A DNA stretch of 64,000 nt from Trissonchulus latispiculum (Eukaryota; Nematoda; Enoplea; Enoplida; Ironidae): positions 15,001-79,000 of the forward strand of contig JASAND010006583.1 of assembly GCA_030248195.1 (NCBI GenBank), given 5' to 3'. The translations under genes were made by a program, and so were the position numbers. Below the pieces are notes generated by a model. It did no database searches and was not told the origin of the DNA. It worked only from the letters and a program-made list of their open reading frames with translations. This document shows, in pieces, positions 41,792 through 63,727 of this stretch; the stretch's first letter is position 1; every line of letters begins with the position of its first letter.

Positions 41792-41797
41792 TCAATT
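41792..41797. repeat. Target-site duplication TCAATT, left of element B
   Basis: Identical 6-mer at 52285-52290. A 6-bp target duplication is the Polinton/Maverick integrase signature. Confidence 0.9.
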
Positions 41798-42456
41798 AGT
41801 AGTAATAGGTCCGCACCAGACGTATTGCTTGGGGGGGGGGTGGTGTAAGCGGCGAAAGCGGCGAAGCGGCGAAAGCGGCCTGGGGGTGGTGGTGGTGTGA
41901 GCGGCGAAAGCGGCGAAGCGGCCTGGTGGGGGTGGTGGTGTAAGCGGCGAAAGCGGCGAAGCGGCGCTGGCGGAGGAGGAGGCTCAGCTTCAGGGAGACC
42001 GGAACCATGGCTGACCCAAGCTTAAATTTGAAAATTCTCTATTTTAAGTGGGAAAAATTTGTGTATAGGGTTTTCAGGCATGTAGAATTCAAATATGAGC
42101 TTTGTTTTCCTCTACAACCTAAGCTCCGCGCTGCAAGTGACCCATGACCGGAACCATGGCTGACCCAAGCTTAAATTTGAAATTCTCTATTTTAAGTGGG
42201 AAAAATTTGTGAATAGGGTTTTCAGGCATGTAGAATTCAAATACGAGCTTAGTTTTCCTCTACAACCTAAGCTCCACGCTGCAAGTGACCCATGATTTTT
42301 TCTCTGCAATCTGAGCTACGCTCTGTACGTGGCTAACAATTTGTGATGAAAGTGCAATTGTTTTTTGTTTGAGGTTAGTTGTTAGTATTTTATGAAAAGA
42401 GAATTTAAAATTCTCTAGCCAGTGTAACTGGCGGAAAAATTTTATTTCAAGCAATA
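41798..42456 (+). repeat. Left terminal inverted repeat of B, outer part
   Basis: Mirrors about 51585-52284. It contains the GGCGAAAGCGGCGAAGCGGC array, two GGAACCATGGCTGACCCAAG units (42000-42300) and the block CAGTGTAACTGGCGGAAAAA. The homology to the right end stops at about 42456 and resumes at 43229. Confidence 0.85.
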
Positions 42457-42508
42457 TACAGCAGGGTTTACAAGTGACTACAAGGTAAGTTAGATATACA
42501 GCATAAAG

Positions 42509-43012
42509 TTAATGGTTGCAGTCATAATGATTCCATGGAACAATGAGCCATTCGGGTACTGTCCATCGCTTGCAGGGATGATTTCCCAACCATTCCGTGA
42601 ATTCCACAGTTCGAGCATCACAGTCCATGGGCCCCAGAACAAATACAACGTCCAACCGTGCGGCATCCATAGACTGAAACGTTTTATGACTTTGTTGCTG
42701 AAGCATCTTTAGGCGGGAATAAATCTTCCAAGTAACACCTCTCTGCAATGGCTGATCAGGTTCCGGCAAAATCATCATAAGGTCGCTCTGTCCAGATTTT
42801 CGAAGCGCTTCTCTAAGTAGAATAGAGGCATTGGCTCCGTAGCGATTAAGAGTCGTTAACAGTTCGTAATTTCTGTCGTGTTCAGGCGTGCAAAGCCTGA
42901 GCTTATCTGCTACGTTTGTGGTAAATAGTCCCACTTCCACCAGGTAATCCAATATCGGTTCCGCTTTCATGTCATTGCAAAATAGCACCAAGTTATCGTA
43001 AACAAGATCCAT
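42509..43012 (-). CDS. CARD (death-fold) domain protein in the left terminal repeat of B
   Basis: The frame extends to ATG 43048, but ATG 43012 (MDLVYDNLVLF) gives the better domain start and a 167-residue product. From that start, residues 1-82 follow the caspase-recruitment-domain pattern: ILDYLVEVGLFT near residue 19, then DKLRLCTPEHDRNYELLTTL, then NRYGANASILLREALRKSGQ and DLMMIL. CARDs make homotypic contacts in apoptosome and inflammasome signalling, so a transposon-borne one may modulate cell death or innate sensing. The C-terminal half (WKIYSRLKMLQQQ, FVLGPMDCDARTVE, VPEWLIVPW) is not recognised. The ORF is intact. It lies in a 772-bp block absent from the matching right repeat. A 70-bp duplication (about 43004-43130) sits just upstream. 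Confidence 0.7.
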   Translation of the reverse strand: MDLVYDNLVLFCNDMKAEPILDYLVEVGLFTTNVADKLRLCTPEHDRNYELLTTLNRYGANASILLREALRKSGQSDLMMILPEPDQPLQRGVTWKIYSRLKMLQQQSHKTFQSMDAARLDVVFVLGPMDCDARTVEFTEWLGNHPCKRWTVPEWLIVPWNHYDCNH

Positions 43013-43228
43013 AATAGCTACAATAAAATGACAGGTGTATAATAGCATCTAGTAGAAGAAAAAGCATCGCTAACAAGAGCCATAATAGCTACAATAAAAT
43101 GACAAGTGTATAATAGCATCAAGTAGAAGAAAACGCAACACACTACATCATTTGAAATAACGAACAACACACTGCAAAACTAACATTGAGGCACCCTGCT
43201 GTGATTGCACCTGTCCATATTAAAAATT

Positions 43229-43690
43229 TAACGCTTGGGTTCCCTGCTGTGTTTGCACCTGCCTCAAAATTTCAAACGGTTTTTGCGACTTTAACGATCA
43301 TTTGGCTCTAGCAGTGACAATACAATGGAAGGAGAAACCAATGTTCAGGTAATAGTTTTACAGAGGTTTTTGAGCTTAGAGGTTGAGGTAAGAGGTTGTG
43401 AGATTAGTGGTTTAGAGATAAGAGGATTTGAGGTTTAGAGATAAGCGGATTAGTGGTTTAGAGATAAGAGGATTAGAGGTTTAAGAGGATTAGTGGTTTA
43501 GAGATAAGAGGATTAGAGGTTTAGAGATAAACGGATTAGAGGTTTCGAGATAAGAGGATTTGAGGCTTAGAGATAAGCGGATTTGAGGTTTAGAGATAAA
43601 AGGATTAGTGGTTTAGAGATAAGAGGTTTTGAGATAAGCGGATTTGAGGTAAGAGTTTTAGATGTTGCCTCTCTTTACTCGCTCTGAGGT
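43229..43690 (+). repeat. Left terminal repeat of B, inner part, with 20-bp minisatellite
   Basis: Mirrors about 51130-51573. It holds the promoter and first exon of the zinc-finger gene and a minisatellite of GGTTTAGAGATAAGAGGATT units (43400-43660). The same units appear inverted at 51160-51410. Confidence 0.85.
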
Positions 43691-44029
43691 ACTCCGACAT
43701 TCTCCGGCACCGTTTTATTTTAGAGCAACTGCAACATATGTGGAATGACATTCGGCCGGAAAGATGCATTGGTGCGGCACATGGACACCAAGCATTTCAA
43801 AAAGGTAATTCGATGTGGCTGCAATACAGATAGTACCACATTTTGATTGAGTGCAGGTATGTCTTGCCTTTAGTCGGGTTCTTATTTCATGTGTCGACTT
43901 CTTTTGTTTCAGGTCAGGATTCATTGTGGTCATTGCTCCAAGATGGTTCTGCGAACAGATACCTACCAGCGCCACTTTAGAGAGCAACACGAGCAATTGG
44001 AGCTTCAGGCTAGTGCAGTTTCGAGTTGA
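43325..44029 (+). CDS. Spliced C2H2 zinc-finger protein, left copy (element B)
   Basis: Three exons keep frame: 43325-43348 (MEGETNVQ), 43724-43804 and 43913-44029, all with GT-AG borders. Exon 2 encodes a C2H2 finger (CNICGMTFGRKDALVRHMDT with KH following). Exon 3 encodes a second one (CGHCSKMVLRTDTYQRHFRE with QH) and stops at TGA 44027-44029. The product is about 73 residues. Exon 1 and most of intron 1 lie in the terminal repeat and recur, inverted, at the right end, so both copies share promoter and start. Likely a small nuclear DNA-binding regulator; target unknown. Confidence is high for the fingers, moderate for exact splicing. Confidence 0.75.
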
Positions 44030-44520
44030 ATCAAGTGGAGAAAATTCACTAGGCAGGATGAGTTACTCTGTGTCGCTTACTCTCTTAGGTAGATGATGCT
44101 AAGTGTTGGGTTGAATGAAGTTGGGAGTAAGGAAGGAAGAGGCACTCTCAATTCAGATAAAGCCTAACTGGAATGGCCAGGATAGGAATAAACAAGGAAA
44201 AGGTTGAAGAGGGACGGATCTGCATAACTTCAAAACGGTGTAGGAGTAGCTCCTAGCTCATAAGAGTTGAGAGCAAATCAGGAGAAAATATGGGGTAAGC
44301 TAGGAGCAGACAACAAATAGTCTGGAAACAGTGAAGAGTCAGAATGGAACAATATCGTTGCAAACAACATCGTTGCAGCCTAAGAGCATGTATGGAGCAG
44401 ACCCGGAGTAGAAAGTGAGAAGCCTCAGACGGTGAATATTTAAAACATCAAAATCGCAGTCTTCACAATCTCAAGAACCATACGCGTCAAACCTGAAAAC
44501 TTCAAACACTCAAGTATAAA
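44017..44520. repeat. Unit of internal duplication in B, copy 1 (5' part)
   Basis: Matches 46122-46620 in the same orientation (CAGTTT(C/A)(G/A)AGTTGA…, CTTAGGTAG(A/G)(T/C)GATGC, GGAAG(A)AGGCACTC). It precedes the GGAGCA array in both copies, so a block of about 1.1-2 kb was duplicated in tandem inside B and then diverged. Confidence 0.6.
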
Positions 44521-44524
44521 CATG

Positions 44525-45660
44525 GCAGGACCAACTAGGGGCAGTCAAGGAGCAAGTAAGGAGCAGCCAAGAAGCATCTAGGAGCAAGCGAGGAGCATTC
44601 AAGGAGCAGTCAAGGAGCAAGTAAGGAGCAGCCAAGGAGCATCTAGGAGCAAGCGAGAAGCATTCAAGGAGCAGTCAAGGAGCAAGTAAGGAGTAGGCTG
44701 AAACAAATAAGGAGCAGGTAAGGAGCAGTCAAGGAGCAAGTAAGCAGCAGCCAAGGAGCATCTAGGAGCAAGCGAGGAGCATTCAAGGAGCAGTCAAGGA
44801 GCAAGTAAGGAGTAGGCTGAAACAAGTAAGGAGCAGGTAAGGAGTAACTCTGGACAGCGCCAGATGTTTGACTGTTCACAGTTGTCTTCTGTTGGCGTCC
44901 CTGTTGCTTGTAGCTTGCTCTGAGATTACTCTCTATTATGGAGCAGGTAGCAACCTAGGAGTGCCGGAGCAGGCGAAAACGATACCCCAATCCTTGGAAG
45001 ACTCAGCCTCATACCCTCTAACCACAAATCTCCATTCCTCCAACCTCAAATCATGAATTCTGTTACCTCAAACCCCAAAACCTGAGACCAAAACACAGTC
45101 GAAAACCCAGCACCTCAAACCGCACAACCGAAACACATCAAACTCTAACTCAGCCAGGAATCCTCAATGTGTAATCTTGGAGTCTGTCCAGAGCATTCTA
45201 TGAGCAAGTCGGGAACAGGCTAACAACAAGTTGGGAGAATGCTAAGAGAAAGCAATAGCAGAATAGGAGCAAGTTAAGAGCGAGGTAGGAGCATGCTAGG
45301 AGCTACCAAGAGTAGGAGCACGTGAGGAGCCGTCTAGAAGCAAGAGATGATCGTGGTAGGAGCAAGTAAGGATTAGGGTAGATGCAAGGAATAATTAACT
45401 CGGGCTCAAAGCCTAGCTTCGGTAATCTTCTGTTTGTCCTCGGTTTTTCGTTGTTGTTTGTTGGATTGGTTTTTGTTGGCTTCTACTGATTACTGATTTT
45501 TGTTGTCCTGAAGCTTGAATCCTGAAGCACACGGGAGATTAAAAGCAATATAGAAGAATATAGGAGTAACTCAGAGCCGGTAAGAGCAATCTCGGAGCCA
45601 GCAAGTGCTCTCGGAGTAGCTCCCAGCAAGCAAGAGTAATCCTGGAGCGAGTCAGGAGCA
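44525..45660. repeat. GGAGCA tandem array 1 of element B
   Basis: Units of AAGGAGCA(A/G)(T/G)(T/A)(C/A)A, about 11 bp with higher-order groups of about 120 bp (44540-44840). Minus-strand Leu/Ala/Cys-rich frames (for example 44664-44879) are repeat translations, not genes. The segment 44840-45150 matches 46825-47200. Confidence 0.75.
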
Positions 45661-46121
45661 CAGCCAGGAGTACTCTATGAGGCCATGGAGCTCATACGGA
45701 GCAATCAAAATACGTATGGAGCACGCCCAGAGTAGCAATAAACGGAGAAGCAGACTAGAAAACAACAGATCCCTTACCTGATTGATAAGTTGTGAGAGAT
45801 GGCAGGACAGAAGCAATTTCAGAGCACATAAAGAGTAGTTCGGAGTAACCTACAGAAGTAACCTTTGAAAGCATGTTAACAGACTGAAGCAATATACATT
45901 CATGCATATGCACAAGTTCAGTGTCAGTGTAATTACCTTTCGGGTTTGGTTGTTGTCAGCGTTGGGTGTGTGTTGTGTGTTGTGTGTGTGTGTTGTGTGA
46001 GTGTTGTGCGCGTTCTTTGTTGTGTTCGTTCTTAGGTGGTTTCTTGCTGGTGTTTGTTCCGGTGTCAGTTTGTTGTGCGGTCAGTTGATTTGCTCTGTTG
46101 TTTTCAATAGGCTTACTGCAG

Positions 46122-47230
46122 TTTCAAGTTGAGTCAAAGATGGATCAAGTTGAGAGAACTCATTAGGCAGGAAGAGTTACTCATAGTGATCTACGTGGGT
46201 TACTTTCTTAGGTAGGCGATGCAAAGAACAGTCTGTAATGTTGGGTTGAATTGGAAACACTCAGTCTAGGAAGAAAGAGGCACTCCCAGCACAGGAAGGA
46301 GTAGTCAGAGTAAACTAGGGAAAGGTGATACGGGACTGAACGTCGTAACCCAAAACGGTTTAAGAGTAGCTCGTAAGAGTTTAAAGATCAGGAGCAAACA
46401 TGTGGTAAGCTAGGAGCAGGCCATATATACTCTGGAAGCAGTGAAGAGTCAGTAAGGAACAACTACGCGAAGAGCACCTATGGAGCAGACATAGAGAAGA
46501 TAAGGAACAGTCTCAGAAGACGAATGTTTCAGTACCTCAATCTTCATAACCCCAAGAACCTTATGCGTCACGCGTGAAAGCCTCAATCACTCAAGCACTA
46601 GCCTGCAACATGCCAAGCGTGAGCAATTGAACGCAAACTAGGAGCAAGCAAGGAGCATTCAAGGAGCAGTCAAGGAGCAAATAAGGAGCAAGTAAGGAGC
46701 AAATAAGGAGCAAGTAAGGAGCAGTCAAGGAGCAGCTAAGGTGCAGTCTAAAAGCAAGTTTGGAACTATTGCAAGCAGCAATTGTGGACCGCATAAGGGG
46801 CAAGTGATGAGCACGTTGAAACAAGTAAGAAGCAAGCGTGGAGCTATTCTGGGCAGGACCAGATGTTGGGGTGTTCTTCGTTTGGTTGTGTTCACTGTTG
46901 CTCGTAGCTTCCGCTGAGCTTGTTCCCTATCATGGAGCAGGCCAAGAGCATATAGCTACCTGGGAGTGCAGGAGCAGGCGAAAACGACACCTCATCCCTC
47001 AGAACCCCCAAACCCCTAACCACAAATCGCTAGCTTCAAATCCATGTTGCCTCTAACCTCAACACCAGACCCAAACCTCACAATTACAAACCCGAAGACC
47101 TAAAACATCACAACCGGAACCCCTTTAACTCTAACTCCGCTAGGAATGTAAAATCCTGGAACCAGTCAAGTCAGGATTATGCTATGAGAAAGTCAGGAGC
47201 ATGGAAGAGCAGACTAGGAGCGAATCAAAC
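46122..47230. repeat. Internal duplication copy 2 with GGAGCA array 2
   Basis: Second copy of the 44017-45160 block. The array proper (46635-46740) is shorter. A GT-rich tract lies upstream at 45965-46010. Confidence 0.6.
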
Positions 47231-47357
47231 CAGCTTAAGTCACACTCTGATTCAAACAAGTGAACCAACCAACAAATGCCAACAAATAACAACACCAACA
47301 ACGACAGAACGAGGCCAACGACGAAGACCAGCGAAAACCAAGCTGGAAACAATTTAA

Positions 47358-47693
47358 GAGCAGGTAAAAGCCGGAGTCGTTACAAAACACAAGATTATTG
47401 CAACTGGGGAACCCGATATGAGAGCTGGATTCTATTCCATGTACGTCTACTGTGACATTGTAGCACCTCAAATCGTCGGAAATACAACTGCGCCCATTCT
47501 GAGAGTCGTTCACGTTGAAGGTGAACACGGAGACATTATAGATAAGATATACAACAACCCGCACTACGTTCCAGTACTAAAAAAGGAGTTTGACACAATC
47601 GAAATCAATATAAACGACGATAATGCTAGACACATTGCATTCAATTACGGAAGAGTGTTTGCAAAACTGCACTTTAGAAGACAGCAATTATGA
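47358..47693 (+). CDS. Penton-like minor capsid protein, C-terminal part
   Basis: The open frame starts after a TAA at 47355-47357; the first ATG is 47418. VTKHKIIATGEPDMRAGFYS is followed by MYVYCDIVAPQIVGNTTAPI, then PHYVPVLKKEFDTIEININD and FAKLHFRRQQL. The YCDIV.PQIVGdT…LLRVV and Y.PVLK..FDTIEI…LHFR pattern is typical of the C-terminal half of Polinton/adintovirus penton-type (vertex) proteins. The N-terminal half is missing or replaced by repeat-derived sequence (47234-47370 resembles element A). The ORF's TGA overlaps the next gene's ATG (ATGA). Truncation suggests an incomplete capsid set unless an upstream exon is spliced on. Confidence 0.65.
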   Translation, partial: EQVKAGVVTKHKIIATGEPDMRAGFYSMYVYCDIVAPQIVGNTTAPILRVVHVEGEHGDIIDKIYNNPHYVPVLKKEFDTIEININDDNARHIAFNYGRVFAKLHFRRQQL

Positions 47694-48103
47694 GAACTCC
47701 ATATTATCCCGAAAGCGTGAAAACCTGGGAGCATAGCTTGCTTCAAACAGGTGGGGCATTTTACAAAGGTGTGCCCTATCAGCGTGGTGGTGGATTCGGT
47801 AAAGTACTTGGTGGCATCTTCAGAGCTATATGGCCGACAGTCCGAAAAATTGGCGCTGAAGTAGGCAAAGAAGCACTGCGGACAGGCTCAGAGGTTGCGA
47901 GAGACTACTTGAATAGAGGAGAAGACATTGGAACGTCGTTTAAACGACACTCAAAACAAGCCGTTGGCCGAGTCTTGGAAACCACGGGTAAGGACTTACA
48001 GGAAGGAAGAGGCCTCGGATCAAGAAAGCGCACCAATAACATAAAAACAATAGGCAGAAGCAAAGCTAAGCGTCGAAAAAGAGACATTTTAGACTATGAC
48101 TAA
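47690..48103 (+). CDS. Adenovirus pVI/pX-like minor virion protein
   Basis: 137 residues, strongly basic. Gly-rich patches (LLQTGGAFYKG and YQRGGGFGKVLGG, about residues 17-42) resemble the sites cut by adenain-type proteases. An amphipathic stretch follows (IFRAIWPTVRKIGAEVGKEA, about 43-62), and the tail is Lys/Arg-rich (GRSKAKRRKRD). The combination and its place between penton and major capsid genes match the minor core/membrane-active proteins of Polintons and adintoviruses. It overlaps the penton ORF by 4 bp and the capsid ORF by 8 bp. The ORF is intact. Whether it acts like pVI (membrane lysis) or pX (DNA condensation) cannot be told. Confidence 0.7.
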   Translation: MRTPYYPESVKTWEHSLLQTGGAFYKGVPYQRGGGFGKVLGGIFRAIWPTVRKIGAEVGKEALRTGSEVARDYLNRGEDIGTSFKRHSKQAVGRVLETTGKDLQEGRGLGSRKRTNNIKTIGRSKAKRRKRDILDYD

Positions 48104-49433
48104 GCGACTTGACGCAAATTCTGTTCCCGGTTTCAAGAGTGAACTGGACTTATTCTCACTCCCACCCACTCAGGTGGCCGTTGAGAAAGGATACTGGTCA
48201 GAATATTACCCTCAAAACCCTGTAACCAATTCTGGTCCATACAGGATATTCGTCCCAAGGGACGCGTACATGCTAGATCTTAACAAAAACTACCTTTACA
48301 TAAAACTCAGAGTGGTATCGGATGCTGGCGCAGCTGTGACTCAGACGGCAGCTGCTGATGGAACTGTAGACGCGGATGACTTTCCCGTTGCTCCAATCAA
48401 TTTGATTGGGAAAACCCTATTTGAGCGCCTTATAGTTAAACTCAGCGACAAGGAAATTTACAACTCGGGCCCACTTTATGCATACCAAGCGTACTTGGAG
48501 ACACTGCTAAACTACGGATGGGACGCCAAAAACTCTCATCAACAACTAAGTTTGTTTTACAAGGATGACAATTTTGAACTAGCCTCGAAAGCAGCCGGAA
48601 AAAGAGCTAAGCCATTTCTAGATAACAACGCGGTCGAACTACTGGCTCCACTGCATTGTGACTTGTTTAAGCAGGAAAGATACTTGCTGAGCGATTGTGA
48701 GCTAGCACTGGAATTACACAGAAACAGTGATAATTTCTGTCTCATCAGTAACGGTACAAAGTACAAACTACTGGTAGACGATATTAGATGGTACGTCTGG
48801 AAAGTAAAGCCACAAGAGTCCCTTTCCCTAGCAATCGAACAAATCTTGCAGACACCAAATACGGCAAAATATCCTATTCGAAGGATTAAAATGGCTACAA
48901 GACATATAGCTGCAGGATCTCAGCATATAATTGAAAACTCAATTTATAGTGGTCAATTACCACGAAGAGTGGTCATAAGCCTTGTAGATGCAGAAGCATT
49001 CAACGGATCTTTCACAAAGAACCCTTTCAAGTTTGAACACTGCAATGTCACAGAAATTGCCCTTAAATGTGGAGACGAATATGTGCCCAAGTATCCCTTG
49101 AAGATGGACTGGAAAACTTATCAGTACAGTTTTCCATACATGTACCTCTACGAAAACTGCGACATGGCCAACTTGGACAGAGGCATGGATATATCCTACA
49201 ACAACTTTATTAAAGGATTCACCATGTTCACCTTTAGTCTAACTGCCGATAACGTGGATACTGGAGCTATGGAATTGATTAGAGAAGGCGACTTGAGCCT
49301 CTCCATGAATCTGAAGGAGCCTTTGCCTGCTGCGGATTTCCCTCAAGGCATCGTCATAATCATATATGGAGAATTTGATAACTTGATTGCCATTGATGCC
49401 AACAGAACACCATTCTTTGACTACGCAATATGA
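48096..49433 (+). CDS. Polinton major capsid protein (hexon-like, double jelly roll)
   Basis: 445 residues, intact. Residues 14-26 (KSELDLFSLPPTQ) are the hallmark N-terminus of the Polinton-derived protein annotated as 'F54H12.2-like' in many animals, now understood as the double-jelly-roll major capsid protein. Length fits the family. Other features are FVPRDAYMLDLNKNYLYIKL (about 49-68), IKMATRHIAAGSQHIIENSI and a C-terminal FPQGIVIIIYGEFDN…ITANR-like strand. It would form trimeric capsomers of an icosahedral particle in the nucleus. It overlaps its upstream neighbour by 8 bp and the protease gene by ATGA. No stop or frameshift, so constraint or recent insertion is likely. Confidence 0.92.
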   Translation: MTKRLDANSVPGFKSELDLFSLPPTQVAVEKGYWSEYYPQNPVTNSGPYRIFVPRDAYMLDLNKNYLYIKLRVVSDAGAAVTQTAAADGTVDADDFPVAPINLIGKTLFERLIVKLSDKEIYNSGPLYAYQAYLETLLNYGWDAKNSHQQLSLFYKDDNFELASKAAGKRAKPFLDNNAVELLAPLHCDLFKQERYLLSDCELALELHRNSDNFCLISNGTKYKLLVDDIRWYVWKVKPQESLSLAIEQILQTPNTAKYPIRRIKMATRHIAAGSQHIIENSIYSGQLPRRVVISLVDAEAFNGSFTKNPFKFEHCNVTEIALKCGDEYVPKYPLKMDWKTYQYSFPYMYLYENCDMANLDRGMDISYNNFIKGFTMFTFSLTADNVDTGAMELIREGDLSLSMNLKEPLPAADFPQGIVIIIYGEFDNLIAIDANRTPFFDYAI

Positions 49434-49918
49434 ATACTAAAGAGATTATAGAGACAATGAAACGGTGTAACGACTTCATTGGGGTATTTGCCAGTGATTG
49501 TCTACCAAACATCAAGTCAAGACCTGCCTGCTTTATTGCCAACACCGACCCCGCAGATCAGCCTGGCCAACACTGGGTTGCACTCTATGTTGGTAACAAT
49601 ATAGAATACTTTGACAGTTATGGACTGCCTCCCATTGCTGAATTTGGCAAGTACGATGTTAATAAATACAACCCTTATTGCCTCCAGAACTTTGATACTA
49701 ACGTTTGTGGAGAATACTGCATCTACTTTCTACTCAAACGATGCCAAGGGTATAGTCTTGAATCTATTGTGGAATACCTGAGAAGGTGTGACAACGACCG
49801 GGTTGTAAAGAAGTTTGTGGACAGGATACGAGCAACGTGCGAAGCTGGTGGACAGTGCTGCAAATGCCGATCGTCAACGTTGTGCTTACTGGAAAGCTTG
49901 GTAAAGAAATTGCCCTGA
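49430..49918 (+). CDS. Adenain-like cysteine protease (C48/C5 type)
   Basis: 162 residues, intact. The catalytic pattern is visible: GQHWVALYV (His48), EYFDSYG (Asp62), Gln86 in CLQNFDTN, and CGEYCIYFLL (nucleophile Cys93 in the CGxxC box). These match the His-Asp/Glu-Gln-Cys order of adenovirus protease and its Polinton relatives. The C-terminus has a CCKCRSSTLC cysteine cluster. It is expected to process virion precursors such as the pVI/pX-like protein. Its ATG overlaps the capsid stop (ATGA), and its 3' end overlaps the TBP-like gene by 55 bp in another frame. Confidence 0.9.
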   Translation: MNTKEIIETMKRCNDFIGVFASDCLPNIKSRPACFIANTDPADQPGQHWVALYVGNNIEYFDSYGLPPIAEFGKYDVNKYNPYCLQNFDTNVCGEYCIYFLLKRCQGYSLESIVEYLRRCDNDRVVKKFVDRIRATCEAGGQCCKCRSSTLCLLESLVKKLP

Positions 49919-50358
49919 CGAAGCTGGATGATGTTTACTATCAACCTAAACGATTCAGCGGGGCTATACTGCATGATGGCTGCACATTTCTGATATTCAA
50001 GAGTGGATCTTTCAACTGTGTTGGTTCCACTTCAACCTCAGATGCGATAGGAAATGCCCATAAACTTGCAGAAAGGTTGGATGCTAGCTTGGAGAATTAT
50101 AGGATATGCAACCTTGTATTCTCAAACAAGGCCAAATCAGCTGTGGACTTGGACTCGCTCTATGAATACCTGCGCCCCTACGGCTATGTTATGATGGATC
50201 ATGAGCTCTTCAGTGGAATCACCTGGAAACTCAATGGAGCTACTGTACGACTATTTCACAATGGCCAGTACTTCATCACTGGACTAAAGACGGAAGAGCA
50301 TGCACAGCTTGCTGATTGCACTGTGCAACAACTATGTGATGAATTCATGAAGAAGTAA
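49864..50358 (+). CDS. TATA-binding-protein-like protein encoded by element B
   Basis: 164 residues from ATG 49864. An upstream in-frame GTG at 49837 adds nine unsupported residues. The sequence follows both TBP repeats. Repeat 1 has IVNVVLTGKLGKEIALTKL, YQPKRFSGAIL, CTFLIFKSGSFNCVGS and AHKLAERL. Repeat 2 has RICNLVF, VDLDSLYEYL, ELFSGITWKL, VRLFHNGQYFITG and a final helix. The PKRF, LIF-SG-…C-G and ELF-G motifs match the saddle core; Phe45 and Phe131 sit where TBP's DNA-kinking phenylalanines lie. Length fits the core (about 180). TBP bends TATA DNA and recruits TFIIA/TFIIB; a diverged copy could direct polymerase to the element's own promoters. The ORF is intact and overlaps the protease gene by 55 bp. 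Homology is by eye, but motif order over the full length makes it strong. Confidence 0.8.
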   Translation: MPIVNVVLTGKLGKEIALTKLDDVYYQPKRFSGAILHDGCTFLIFKSGSFNCVGSTSTSDAIGNAHKLAERLDASLENYRICNLVFSNKAKSAVDLDSLYEYLRPYGYVMMDHELFSGITWKLNGATVRLFHNGQYFITGLKTEEHAQLADCTVQQLCDEFMKK

Positions 50359-50395
50359 TAAAAGGCGCTAAAATCTGACAAGAAACTGACTGACA

Positions 50396-50683
50396 ATGGA
50401 ATATCAGACGAAACGAGATTATATCTTATCCACTGCCAACTTGAGGTGTGTGGAAGCGGAACTTACAGCAATCAATGGTGACACTGTGGAGTCATCAGAT
50501 ATCAGAGATTTTATGCTGCTCAAGTTCCAAAACTGGACGAATGATGATAAAATGTACTTGCTTATCACGGATGAATGCTACCATATTCTCTTTAAAGGAT
50601 GGGTCGAGAAGTCAACAGTTGCTGACGTTTGCTCATTTCCAGAAAGAAGGAAGCTGACGGTGCTGGCTATTCACCTTGACTGA
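50396..50683 (+). CDS. Unknown 95-residue ORF after the TBP-like gene
   Basis: ATG 50396, 37 bp after the TBP-like stop, same strand. Begins MEYQTKRDYILSTANLRCVE, then DFMLLKFQNWTNDDKMYLLI and HILFKGWVEKSTVADV, ending LTVLAIHLD. Alternating hydrophobic residues suggest a small β-rich fold. No family is recognised. Its position suggests a partner of the TBP-like protein or a small virion protein; both are guesses. It is followed within 15 bp by a UUCG hairpin. Confidence 0.6.
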   Translation: MEYQTKRDYILSTANLRCVEAELTAINGDTVESSDIRDFMLLKFQNWTNDDKMYLLITDECYHILFKGWVEKSTVADVCSFPERRKLTVLAIHLD

Positions 50684-50696
50684 ATGGACTCATCAA

Positions 50697-50712
50697 ACCT
50701 CTTCGGAGGTTC
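50697..50712 (+). terminator. Hyperstable C(UUCG)G hairpin after the last cassette gene
   Basis: AACCTCTTCGGAGGTT forms a perfect 6-bp stem closed by the cUUCGg tetraloop, 13 bp after the TGA of the 95-residue ORF. The same 16-mer is at 39335-39350 in element A. It may mark a transcript 3' end or protect RNA; a conserved short coding frame is the alternative explanation. Confidence 0.4.
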
Positions 50713-50814
50713 CGTCTGAAGCCACAGCGTGGCGGATGGCTTTATTTCAGGCATACATACAGTTTACATAGTTGAACAAGTTTAATTGTTATTCAGTTTC
50801 GGCTTCGTTAGTCT

Positions 50815-51475
50815 TCATCGTTTTGTTGTTTGTTTGTTGTTGTTTGTCGTTTCGCTGGTTGTTGTCGGTGGTGATTCTGGTGGTGTTGTTGTTTCAGGTC
50901 TCCGCTTCTTTGTTCCATGTGAATGAATTCGTTTGCAATGTGCCATTAGGAGATCCTGTCTGGCAAACACGCGACCACATTTTATACAGGCAACCGGCAA
51001 TGACTGCCCATGCTGATCCCTGAGATGGCGCTGGTAGGTATCTGTTCGCAGAAACGTCTGGGAGCAATGACCGCACTGAATCCTGGCCTGAAACAAAACA
51101 CTCGACTATAAGCAAACGAAAGAGACATTGCAGGTGGTACTATTTGGAGCTAACTCTTACCTCAAATCCGCTTATCTCTAAACCTCTAATCCTCTTATCT
51201 CTAAACCACTAATCTTCTTATCTCTAAACCACTAATCCTTTTATCTCTAAACCTCAAATCCGCTTATCTCTAAACCTCAAGTCCGCTTATCTCTAAACCT
51301 CTAATCCTCTTATCTCTAAAACATTAATCCTCTTATCTCTAAACCACTAATCCTCTTATCTCTAAACCACTAATCCGCTTATCTCTAAACCACTAATCTC
51401 ACAACCTCTTACCTCAACCTCTAAGCTCAAAAACCTCTGTAAAACTATTACCTGAACATTGGTTTCTCCTTCCAT
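50815..51475 (-). CDS. Spliced C2H2 zinc-finger protein, right copy (element B)
   Basis: Exon 1 (51475-51452, MEGETNVQ) lies in the right terminal repeat and is identical to the left copy. Exon 2 (51087-50815) follows a TTTCAG acceptor. It encodes IQCGHCSQTFLRTDTYQRHL with RDQH, then ACIKCGRVFARQDLLMAHCK with RIH, so two C2H2 fingers, and a Thr/Pro/Lys tail to TGA at 50815. The product is about 98 residues. Its first finger is homologous to the left gene's second finger; the left gene's CNICG finger exon is absent here. The two genes face inward from the two ends and share promoter sequence through the terminal repeats. Confidence 0.75.
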
Positions 51476-52284
51476 TGTATTGTCACTGCTAGAGCCAAAT
51501 GATCGTTAAAGTCGCAAAAACCGTTTGAAATTTTGAGGCAGGTGCAAACACAGCGGGGAACCCAAGCGTTAAATTTGCTTGAAATAAAATTTTTCCGCCA
51601 GTTACACTGGCTAGAGAATTTTAAATTCTCTTTTCATAAAATACTAACAACTAACCTCAAACAAAAAAAATTGCACTTTCATCACAAATTGTTAGCCACG
51701 TACAGAGCGTAGCTCAGGTTGCAGAGAAAAAATCAGGGGTCACTTGCAGCGTGGAGCTTAGGTTGTAGAGGAAAACTAAGCTCGTATTTGAATTCTACAT
51801 GCCTGAAAACCCTATTCACAAATTTTTCCCACTTAAAATAGAGAATTTCAAATTTAAGCTTGGGTCAGCCATGGTTCCGGTCATGGGTCACTTGCAGCGC
51901 GGAGCTTAGGTTGTAGAGGAAAACTAAGCTCATATTTGAATTCTACATGCCTGAAAACCCTATACACAAATTTTTCCCACTTAAAATAGAGAATTTTCAA
52001 ATTTAAGCTTGGGTCAGCCATGGTTCCGGTCTCCCTGAAGCTGAGCCTCCTCCTCCGCCAGCGCCGCTTTGCCGCTTTCGCCGCTTACACCACCACCCCC
52101 ACCAGGCCGCTTCGCCGCTTTCGCCGCTTCGCCGCTTTCGCCGCTCACACCACCACCACCCCCAGGCCGCTTTCGCCGCTTCGCCGCTTTCGCCGCTTCG
52201 CTGCTTTCGCCGCTTCGCCGCTTTCGCCGCTTACACCACCACCCCCCCCCCAAGCAATACGTCTGGTGCGGACCTATTACTACT
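51130..52284 (-). repeat. Right terminal inverted repeat of element B
   Basis: Mirrors 41798-42456 plus 43229-43680, including the minisatellite (51160-51410), the CAGTTACACTGGC block, two subterminal units and the GCCGCTTTCGCCGCTTC array. It lacks the 772-bp CARD-bearing block present at the left. Confidence 0.88.
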
Positions 52285-52290
52285 TCAATT
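52285..52290. repeat. Target-site duplication TCAATT, right of element B
   Basis: Identical to 41792-41797. Confidence 0.9.
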
Positions 52291-61690: not shown

Positions 61691-61717
61691 TTCTCGGCTG
61701 TGCGATTTTCGACAAAG

Positions 61718-61865
61718 AATATTCAACCGTCAATTATTATAGCACCTGAATTTGCGACGTCTCGCACAATTACTGGAAAAGACGAATTGACTACAACGGA
61801 CACAACAACAACAATAACTACTACTACAACCACAACCGCAACAACAACAACTACTACTACTACTT

Positions 61866-61932
<67 letters not shown>

Positions 61933-61970
61933 AACCACAACCACAACAACAACAACTACTACTACTACTT

Positions 61971-62010
<40 letters not shown>

Positions 62011-62045
62011 TACTACTACTACTACTTCTACTACTACTACTACTT

Positions 62046-62088
<43 letters not shown>

Positions 62089-62638
62089 AACTGCTACTAC
62101 AATTACTACTACTACTGCTACTACTACTAAAACTGCTACTGCAACTACAACTACTACTACAGCTACTACTACAATTACTAAAAGAACTACTACTACAACA
62201 ACTACTGCTACTATCACTACTACTAAAGCTATCACTACTACTGCTTCTACTACTGCTGCAGCTACAATAACTAATACCGGTACCACTTCTATAACTACTA
62301 CTAAAACTAGTATACCCGCAACAATGACGACTACAACAACTGCTACTATAACAACCAGGACTTCAACTACTACTGGTACTACTACTACAACAACAACTAA
62401 TACTGGCACTGCTACCACTTCTATAACAACTACTACTACAACTATTGCCACTATTACTGCTACTATTATAACTGCTACAACAACTAATACTGGTACTAGT
62501 TCCACAACTGCTATTAAAACTACTATACCTGCAACAATCACTACTGCAACAACTGCTACAACTACTATTGGTACTCTTACTACGGCAACTACCACTACAA
62601 CAAGTAATGCTAATGCTGGCACTGCTACTACTACTACA

Positions 62639-62698
<60 letters not shown>

Positions 62699-62743
62699 AC
62701 TAGTACTACTACTACTACTACTACCACTACTACCACTATTACC

Positions 62744-62775
<32 letters not shown>

Positions 62776-62858
62776 AACTACTACTGCTAGAACTACTACT
62801 ACAACAGTTACTACTACAACACCAAGTATTACTATTACTACTACAACTACTACTTCTG

Positions 62859-62889
<31 letters not shown>

Positions 62890-62905
62890 AACTACTACTA
62901 CTACA

Positions 62906-62985
<80 letters not shown>

Positions 62986-63727
62986 CACTACTACTACTAC
63001 TACTACTACCACTACTACTACAACAGTTAGTACTACAACACCTAGTATTACTATTACTACTACAACTACTACTTCTGCTACTAATACTAGAGCTATAAAA
63101 ACAGCAACAATAATTACTACTAGTGCTACTGCTACAACTGCTACTACAACAACCAGGACAACGACAACTACGACTCGTACTACTAGTACAACAACAACTA
63201 CTACAACTACTACTACTATTGCCACTACCAGTCGTGCTGTTGCTACTACTTCAGCAATAACAGCTCCTACGACGACTACTTTTAGTACCAGGATTGCCGC
63301 TGCTACTATCACTGCTACTGACAAGCAAAACAAGTTCAAAACTACTAGCGATATGCAAACTACACAGCTGCAAACGGTCAGCTCTGAAGCAACAAATATG
63401 CACAAGACTGCAGCTACTAGCAAGCAGACCTTTGCGCAGATCAGCAGTGCCAGTTCTACTGCAGCAGCAGCTGCAAATCCAATAACTGCATACTCAACAG
63501 CACAGTCACCGTTGGACCATACTATGACCGGAACAACGCAAACCGCCAATACAGAATCAAAGCAGTCTAGTGCTGGAAGCTTTATGAAAACCAGTGCCCA
63601 AGAAGCAGCAGCAGTAGCACAGTCACTCGCCAGCATAGTCACTACCCCTGCGATTACCGTCACAACAACAACAAAGTTGACAATTTCGATTGGTAAATAT
63701 GAACCGCAAACCATGGTTTTACACTGA
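61718..63727 (+). CDS. Thr-rich mucin-like exon (ACT/ACA/ACC expansion)
   Basis: After an ACAAAG acceptor-like site the frame is open for about 670 codons. It starts NIQPSIIIAPEFATSRTITG, then has some 450 residues of almost pure Thr with scattered Ser, Ala, Ile, Val, Lys and Arg (about 61800-63290). A normal-complexity Ser/Thr/Ala/Gln tail follows (SDMQTTQLQTVSSEATNMHK, ASIVTTPAITVTTTTKL) to TGA 63725-63727. Such domains are O-glycosylated extracellular stalks. A GTAAAT donor-like site at about 63692 could instead splice onward past the window. It lies downstream of the lectin exons on the same strand, so a lectin plus mucin-stalk protein is plausible but not phase-proven. The opposite-strand Val-rich frame is its mirror. 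Confidence 0.6.
61800..63230. repeat. Trinucleotide tract (ACT)n with ACA/ACC interruptions
   Basis: Near-continuous ACT/ACA/ACC triplets; two blocks (about 62812-62880 and 63020-63085) share ACAACA(C)CAAGTATTACTATTAC-like sequence, showing internal duplication as well as slippage. Confidence 0.9.

Follow-up and report, generated by a model that had tools for sequence, protein, structure and literature searches.

Polintons/Mavericks (Preplasmiviricota) are mobile elements whose named features are pPOLB, MCP, mCP, int, pro, atp, and terminal inverted repeats (TIRs) (PMC10328495). Here, we describe elements of this kind from the nematode Trissonchulus latispiculum that carry a gene for a TATA-binding protein (TBP). 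The analysis centers on a 64,000-nucleotide stretch (GenBank assembly GCA_030248195.1, contig JASAND010006583.1, positions 15,001 to 79,000 of the forward strand), referred to as the window, and coordinates without a locus or contig name count from its first base. The TBP open reading frame (ORF) lies at 49864..50358 on the plus strand, within an element at 41798-52284. The elements share with Polintons/Mavericks a PolB, an rve integrase with chromodomain, a capsid ORF, a protease-like ORF, long TIRs and, at the window copy, a 6-bp target duplication. They differ in carrying a CARD-domain cargo gene and the TBP itself, which falls outside the feature list in the available part of PMC10328495.

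TBPs are known from larger DNA viruses, and for some of these a role of the virus-encoded protein in transcription has been proposed or shown. The asfarvirus protein pB263R is predicted to be a TBP (PMC5825884), the TBP and TFIIBs of CpV-BQ1 are proposed to redirect the host RNA polymerase (PMC12085832), and TBP is found in 59% of mirusvirus genomes (PMC10132985; PMC12768974). In Kaposi's sarcoma-associated herpesvirus (KSHV), ORF24 contains a viral TBP-like domain, which binds the TATTWAA motif of late promoters and brings in host RNA polymerase II (Pol II) (PMC13345323). A fold comparison of our element TBP with BFVD returned 42 matches at E <= 0.001, the named ones including Heterosigma akashiwo virus, Ectocarpus virus, and abalone asfa-like virus. 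A preliminary description of the window had noted that TBP-like genes exist in some giant DNA viruses.

The giant-virus and asfarvirus TBPs share the fold, but they were compared by fold only, with 8-21% identity in the 42 matches, and the model of the window TBP is nearer to cellular TBP (TMq 0.94) than to the best viral match (0.78). The elements are 10-15 kb long, with no TFIIB gene among the ORFs tested. Mirusviruses, likened here by description, are likewise a DNA virus group with TBP but have an HK97-fold capsid and large genomes. KSHV ORF24, which takes the place of TBP at late promoters, offers the best model for how the element TBP would act, but besides partner proteins it has an extra N-terminal domain that binds Pol II, whereas the element protein is a bare two-repeat core. 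Metazoan TBP, TRF-like, and TBPL2 proteins have the same fold and belong to the same family (in our alignment, the element protein shares 30-34% identity with the host TBP, with the two TRF rows, and with the TBPL2 row), but they are cellular genes that group with the host TBP and away from the element genes.

Our search of open-licence papers for TBP together with Polinton, Maverick, or polinton-like virus did not turn up a TBP reported for Polintons. The TBPs of PMC10675990 belong to mirusvirus-like elements, those of PMC11464507 and PMC12085832 to giant viruses, and that of PMC7786948 to the host, and a term search located neither TATA nor TBP in PMC11071308, PMC11071296, PMC10120064, PMC9952930, PMC10328495, and PMC12721341. 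A known protein family and a known element class thus occur here in a combination that we did not find described, in several lineages and at hundreds of places.

TBP gene and its element

The TBP frame at 49864-50358 begins with ATG and is open for 164 amino acids (aa), overlapping the preceding protease-like ORF by 55 bases. Against Pfam TBP (PF00352) it scored 84.1 bits (cut-off 22.9) in two stretches that correspond to both repeats. Among PDB sequences, 35 matched at E <= 10 (best E 7e-11), and all are named as TBPs or TBP fusions with the sole exception of one named only ECU04_1440; a profile built from 20 members of the family of element copies reached E 1e-22. Such a two-repeat match is far beyond anything chance could account for. 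The predicted structure is a confident model with the pseudo-symmetric saddle of the TBP fold. The preliminary description had read this ORF by eye as an intact two-repeat TBP core, and profile searches and structure prediction both uphold that reading.

It had also placed the ORF inside a capsid/protease cassette. The setting is correct, with neighbors whose own profile matches are weak. The 445-aa, double-jelly-roll-like capsid ORF (48096..49433, plus strand) scored 27.1 bits against DJR-like_dom, marginally above the cut-off of 27.0, and the 162-aa adenovirus-type cysteine protease-like ORF (49430..49918, plus strand) scored 14.0 bits against Peptidase_C5, below the cut-off of 21.3. A protease-like relative at locus L025 reached 20.7 bits, also below that cut-off.

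The element is a 10,487-bp insertion. Its left TIR (41798..42454, plus strand), which starts AGTAGTAATAGG, pairs with the right TIR (51575..52284, minus strand) at 91.6% over 711 columns, including a 466-nt core at 99%. Directly outside both repeats stand the identical bases TCAATT (41792..41797 and 52285..52290), and a 6-bp target-site duplication is typical of Polintons. We found no PolB-sized frame inside 41798-52284, where the longest frame is the 445-aa capsid ORF. As PolB would require a longer frame than any present, we regard the window copy as an internally deleted derivative in which the virion-and-TBP cassette is intact. The claim that a capsid-encoding Polinton carries its own TBP stands for this kind of element, while the window copy itself is not a full Polinton.

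Copies in the genome and a complete relative

In the 734-Mb genome, we scored the best 150 of 866 candidate matches to the window TBP, which ran from 100% down to 40% identity. Under a ranking that favors intact copies, the matched stretch was stop-free in 134 of these 150 and contained stops in 16. A second TBP lineage accounted for at least 150 further places, with none of the 150 listed also in the first set. Both sets, combined with 59 of 150 Pfam rows not already included (second repeats left out), came to 357 distinct places, or at least 355 TBP-type places after subtracting the two exons of the host TBP; the 57 places added through Pfam may include other cellular TBP paralogues, and the loci inspected one by one are those named below. 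In sixteen of the listed lineage-C copies, a group at 70-76% identity, the match is open except for one in-frame TAG, at which a shorter gene may actually terminate.

Lineage A was studied at 21 loci, namely 20 regions around copies and the window. A protease-like ORF stands directly before TBP in 20 of the 21. At the remaining locus, L016 (contig C1659), a protease fragment directly precedes TBP beside an inverted second copy: two inverted TBP matches, each preceded by a protease fragment, lie 355 bases apart, the end of the cassette being duplicated in inverted orientation. Capsids of eight lineage-A loci are 67-98% identical to the window capsid, and identities for the TBPs of 19 of the 20 regions (L026 left out) are 40-85%.

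Eight of at least 77 listed PolB places have a listed TBP within 20 kb, making at least eight linked pairs, all on the same strand and 9.6-10.1 kb apart. A complete relative at C12783:7706-22413 is bounded by terminal repeats of 545 bp (98.9% identity) and contains a 1414-codon PolB frame (DNA_pol_B_2, E 4e-49), an integrase with chromodomain (rve, E 5e-14), and a protease-like ORF, with TBP located 430 bp inside the repeat. No matching target-site duplication was found for this copy, and its capsid frame had no Pfam match at E <= 0.05. At three loci (L020:69-3608, L019, and L024), long frames of 1179, 1176, and 951 aa converge on TBP; the L020 frame matches Endonuclease_7, not DNA_pol_B_2, and by eye its motifs resemble Polinton PolB.

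Beyond lineage A, where neighboring genes were identified by eye unless a profile is named, the position of TBP varies. It lies between the integrase/chromodomain gene and a penton-like gene at L035 and L036, and at L037 it follows a NADAR-domain gene (L037:3733-4203, Pfam E 4e-40) and precedes small ORFs. At L038 and L039 it and the virion genes are encoded on different strands; a 218-codon frame at L038 resembles an FtsK/HerA packaging ATPase by eye. At L040:1913-3124, the TBP repeats (Pfam E 5e-25) and a penton-like part (by eye) form one 404-aa frame from its Met. The four proteins tested from these other lineages matched Pfam TBP at E-values of 5e-25 to 2e-37.

Selection and descent

Values of dN/dS for TBP were 0.08-0.38 (16 of 18 pairs computable), which indicates that the element TBP is under constraint. 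The corresponding values were 0.02-0.13 for the capsid (8 of 12 pairs) and 0.03-0.24 for the protease (11 of 12 pairs), and TBP evolves faster than the capsid.

The host TBP is canonical, with its two repeats on separate exons. We placed it with the element proteins in a 42-row tree, which includes TRF-like and TBPL2 rows and leaves out TRF2/TBPL1 and the named giant-virus and mirusvirus TBPs. The host TBP falls among eukaryotic TBPs, with TBPL2 at 97/93, and lineage A groups with five short metagenome proteins, P0002-P0006, at 83/83. A clade of lineage A, its metagenome relatives, and the host TBP was rejected (p-AU 1.4e-7), as was a clade of the 15 element TBPs of the tree without the metagenome proteins (p-AU 5e-4). 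Separation of all elements and all short metagenome TBPs as a clade from the cellular and archaeal TBPs was not rejected (p 0.47). From these tests, it follows that the elements or their kin have had TBP genes for a long time; a single origin is possible, and so are several. Identity over aligned residues is 34% between the window TBP and that of the host, which is no closer than the archaeal rows at 28-37%. The preliminary description had argued from scattered substitutions that the gene is not a recent host copy, and the tree agrees, with the element genes apart from both the host TBP and the TRF-like rows.

As a query, the window TBP (P0001) alone found none at E <= 1 among 5.8 billion proteins, while the 20-member TBP profile found 15, including P0002-P0006, which are carried on contigs of 1.1-2.9 kb. 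IMG/VR yielded no relatives for P0001, the capsid, or alignments A1, A3, and A4. Directly observed are thus the profile match to both repeats, the TBP fold of the model, the position within the element (in the window and the complete relative), related loci in the hundreds, purifying selection, and descent separate from the host TBP.

Possible function of the element TBP

On balance, we consider it probable that this TBP core of a TIR-bounded Polinton binds TATA-like boxes of the element, recruits host Pol II via TFIIB, and so transcribes element genes. In such a scheme the protein would bind and bend DNA, as the retained kinking phenylalanines and central asparagines suggest; it would recruit TFIIB, as an invariant glutamate suggests; and it would use CATAAAA/ATAAAA boxes that are enriched upstream of element ORFs. 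Its chief target would be the capsid cassette that contains the TBP gene. No RNA polymerase subunit was present among those element ORFs, a part of the total, that were run through Pfam, and because of this the polymerase would be the host's Pol II. The preliminary description had suggested that the TBP may direct polymerase to the element's own promoters, a role that gains indirect support from the conserved DNA- and TFIIB-contact residues and from the TATA-like box upstream of element genes.

Functional residues were mapped on the host TBP, with numbers past the exon joint corrected by two, in 26 element TBPs, near-identical copies included; human residue numbering is used. The window TBP has the kinking residues F31, F45, F116, and F131 and the central N5 and N83. 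Equivalents of N163, N253, F193, F210, and E282 are present in all 26 proteins; the last of these, the invariant TFIIB-contact glutamate of the C-terminal stirrup, is E114 in the window TBP. F301 is invariant in the 20 sequences of alignment A1 and is seen as IFHTG in other element TBPs. The F284 position (F116 in the window) is Phe in 10 of 20 lineage-A proteins and in lineages B and C, and T309 is kept in 14 of 20 in lineage A. In cellular TBP four phenylalanines intercalate, and TRF2, which lost one, cannot bind TATA; E146 of Arabidopsis TBP2, whose salt bridge to TFIIB matters most (PMC10005294), aligns with the E282 equivalent. The overall pattern would fit DNA bending and TFIIB binding, with the TFIIA side and base readout altered.

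Boxes were sought upstream of 53 gene starts. In an unbiased 6-mer scan, ATAAAA ranked first, occurring in 25 windows against 10.2 expected (z 5.0; the maximum across 200 shuffle sets was 3.8). The longer CATAAAA occurred upstream 14 times against 2.6 expected (200 shuffles, largest 6) and inside frames 8 times against 5.2. Of the 8 capsid starts, 6 have ATAAAA at -46 to -61, and all 7 penton-like starts have it at -85 to -96. It also lies upstream of 5 of 6 integrase starts, at variable distance, and upstream of three of the eight protease starts and three of the eight TBP starts. Eighteen further starts outside the scan (16 from other lineages and 2 of PolB) had ATAAAA in 6 cases against 2.6 by shuffling (P 0.026), compared with 89 of 864 control windows. 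At L037, an identical stretch of 12 bases, TATAAAAGCAAG, stands before each of two consecutive genes.

Several observations weigh against transcription of element genes by this TBP. At the F284 position, Tyr replaces Phe in 10 of 20 lineage-A proteins and in lineage D, and Leu does so in lineage E. T218 is lost in all 20 lineage-A proteins, Glu187, which presumably faces TFIIA, is replaced in all 26, and 23 of 26 have a shorter first stirrup (with nothing in the R201 column), lineages D and E being the ones that retain it. A TATA weight matrix compared with synonymous-codon shuffles gave none of 53 gene starts at p < 0.05 (median p 0.37), and neither TATAAA nor AATAAA was enriched upstream. 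ATAAAA is absent before all seven pVI-like starts, all seven starts of two small genes, and 5 of 8 protease and 5 of 8 TBP starts. It is also in excess inside frames (35 against 24.0, standard deviation 3.9), and CATAAAA precedes only 1 of the 18 further starts; both findings weaken the promoter-box interpretation, which is no more than suggestive, given that the windows share ancestry and the motif was chosen post hoc. TBP lies outside the cassette-end position in lineages other than A, and the window copy, with neither PolB nor integrase genes, is not autonomous.

A role directed at the host is one alternative. The element TBP might compete for TFIIB or host promoters and thereby damp or redirect host transcription during element replication, in keeping with the invariant TFIIB-contact glutamate and with the CARD-domain gene of the window element, a cargo that could act on host defence. 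We consider this improbable, since in lineage A the virion cassette ends with TBP and enrichment of CATAAAA upstream of element ORFs would be unexpected for a purely host-directed factor. About equally unlikely in our view is that the TBP fold serves DNA bending outside transcription, in replication initiation at the inverted repeats, in genome packaging, or as a virion component. The in-frame fusion of TBP and penton-like part at L040 would suit a structural role, as would the place beside capsid and protease, but that fusion occurs in one locus only, and TFIIB-contact residues, one of which is invariant, would not be needed. Very little speaks for functionless leftovers or recent copies of the host TBP: stops do occur in 16 of the 150 scored matches, yet the dN/dS range, the rejected descent from host TBP, and frames that remain intact down to 40% identity contradict such an origin, and we give it hardly any weight.

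An extension of the transcriptional reading, which we offer tentatively and with some doubt, is that the elements possess their own promoter system. A TBP with altered saddle and TFIIA side would fire CATAAAA promoters together with the Pol II and TFIIB of the host but without need of its TFIID, and would be an old core gene of a Polinton branch. If so, animal capsid-coding mobile elements would be transcriptionally semi-autonomous viruses. Possession of a TBP would bring transposons and viruses closer together and would provide a second natural TBP/promoter pair in one nucleus, in which the division of labour among TBP, TFIIA, and TFIIB could be tested. It would also offer a handle on the expression of Polinton virion genes, combining a dedicated factor with a candidate box and with natural copies by the hundred for comparison. 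In our tree, drawn without TRF2/TBPL1, this TBP lineage stands apart from the host TBP as well as from the TRF-like proteins and TBPL2.

Other features of the window

Upstream of the capsid ORF, the cassette retains the 3' fragment of a penton-like ORF (47376..47693, plus strand), where homology to locus L013 starts at 47376. Intact relatives of this ORF are about 272-279 aa long and have no Pfam match, and we infer the name "penton-like" from gene position. It is followed by a 137-aa ORF for a small virion protein (47690..48103, plus strand), which is conserved in the cassette, also has no Pfam match, and is putatively labelled "pVI-like" after Polinton gene orders. Downstream of TBP are a small conserved ORF of 95 aa (50396..50683, plus strand), which is 91% identical in L013 and 64% in L014 and L015 and has no Pfam match in its L013 copy, and a C2H2 zinc-finger open stretch of 96 codons (50815..51105, minus strand). 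The latter has DNA homology to L013:6636-6788, and the homologous L013 ORF matches zf-C2H2 at E 1.6e-14. PHROGs returned nothing for the four proteins submitted, and the part of the element between positions of about 44.1 and 47.3 kb in the window shares no stretch of at least 60 matching bases with the related loci compared.

Just inside the left TIR, the element carries the 179-aa CARD-domain protein (42509..43048, minus strand; Pfam CARD E 4e-9, 36.8 bits, cut-off 23.9). CARD is an adaptor domain of apoptosis and inflammasomes; a homologue is present in another copy (L013:7625-8128, E 2.5e-8), and we found no literature combining Polinton and CARD domain. An inner inverted repeat at 43224..43657 pairs with 51152-51576 (89.8% over 442 columns), and 43156-43995, in the left arm, matches in reverse the region downstream of the L002 TBP (91%). 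The left end of the window element thus resembles a right end copied in inverted orientation. Outside the element, 61700-63727 is a long microsatellite-like stretch that is open as a 675-aa threonine-rich frame and is valine-rich on the other strand.
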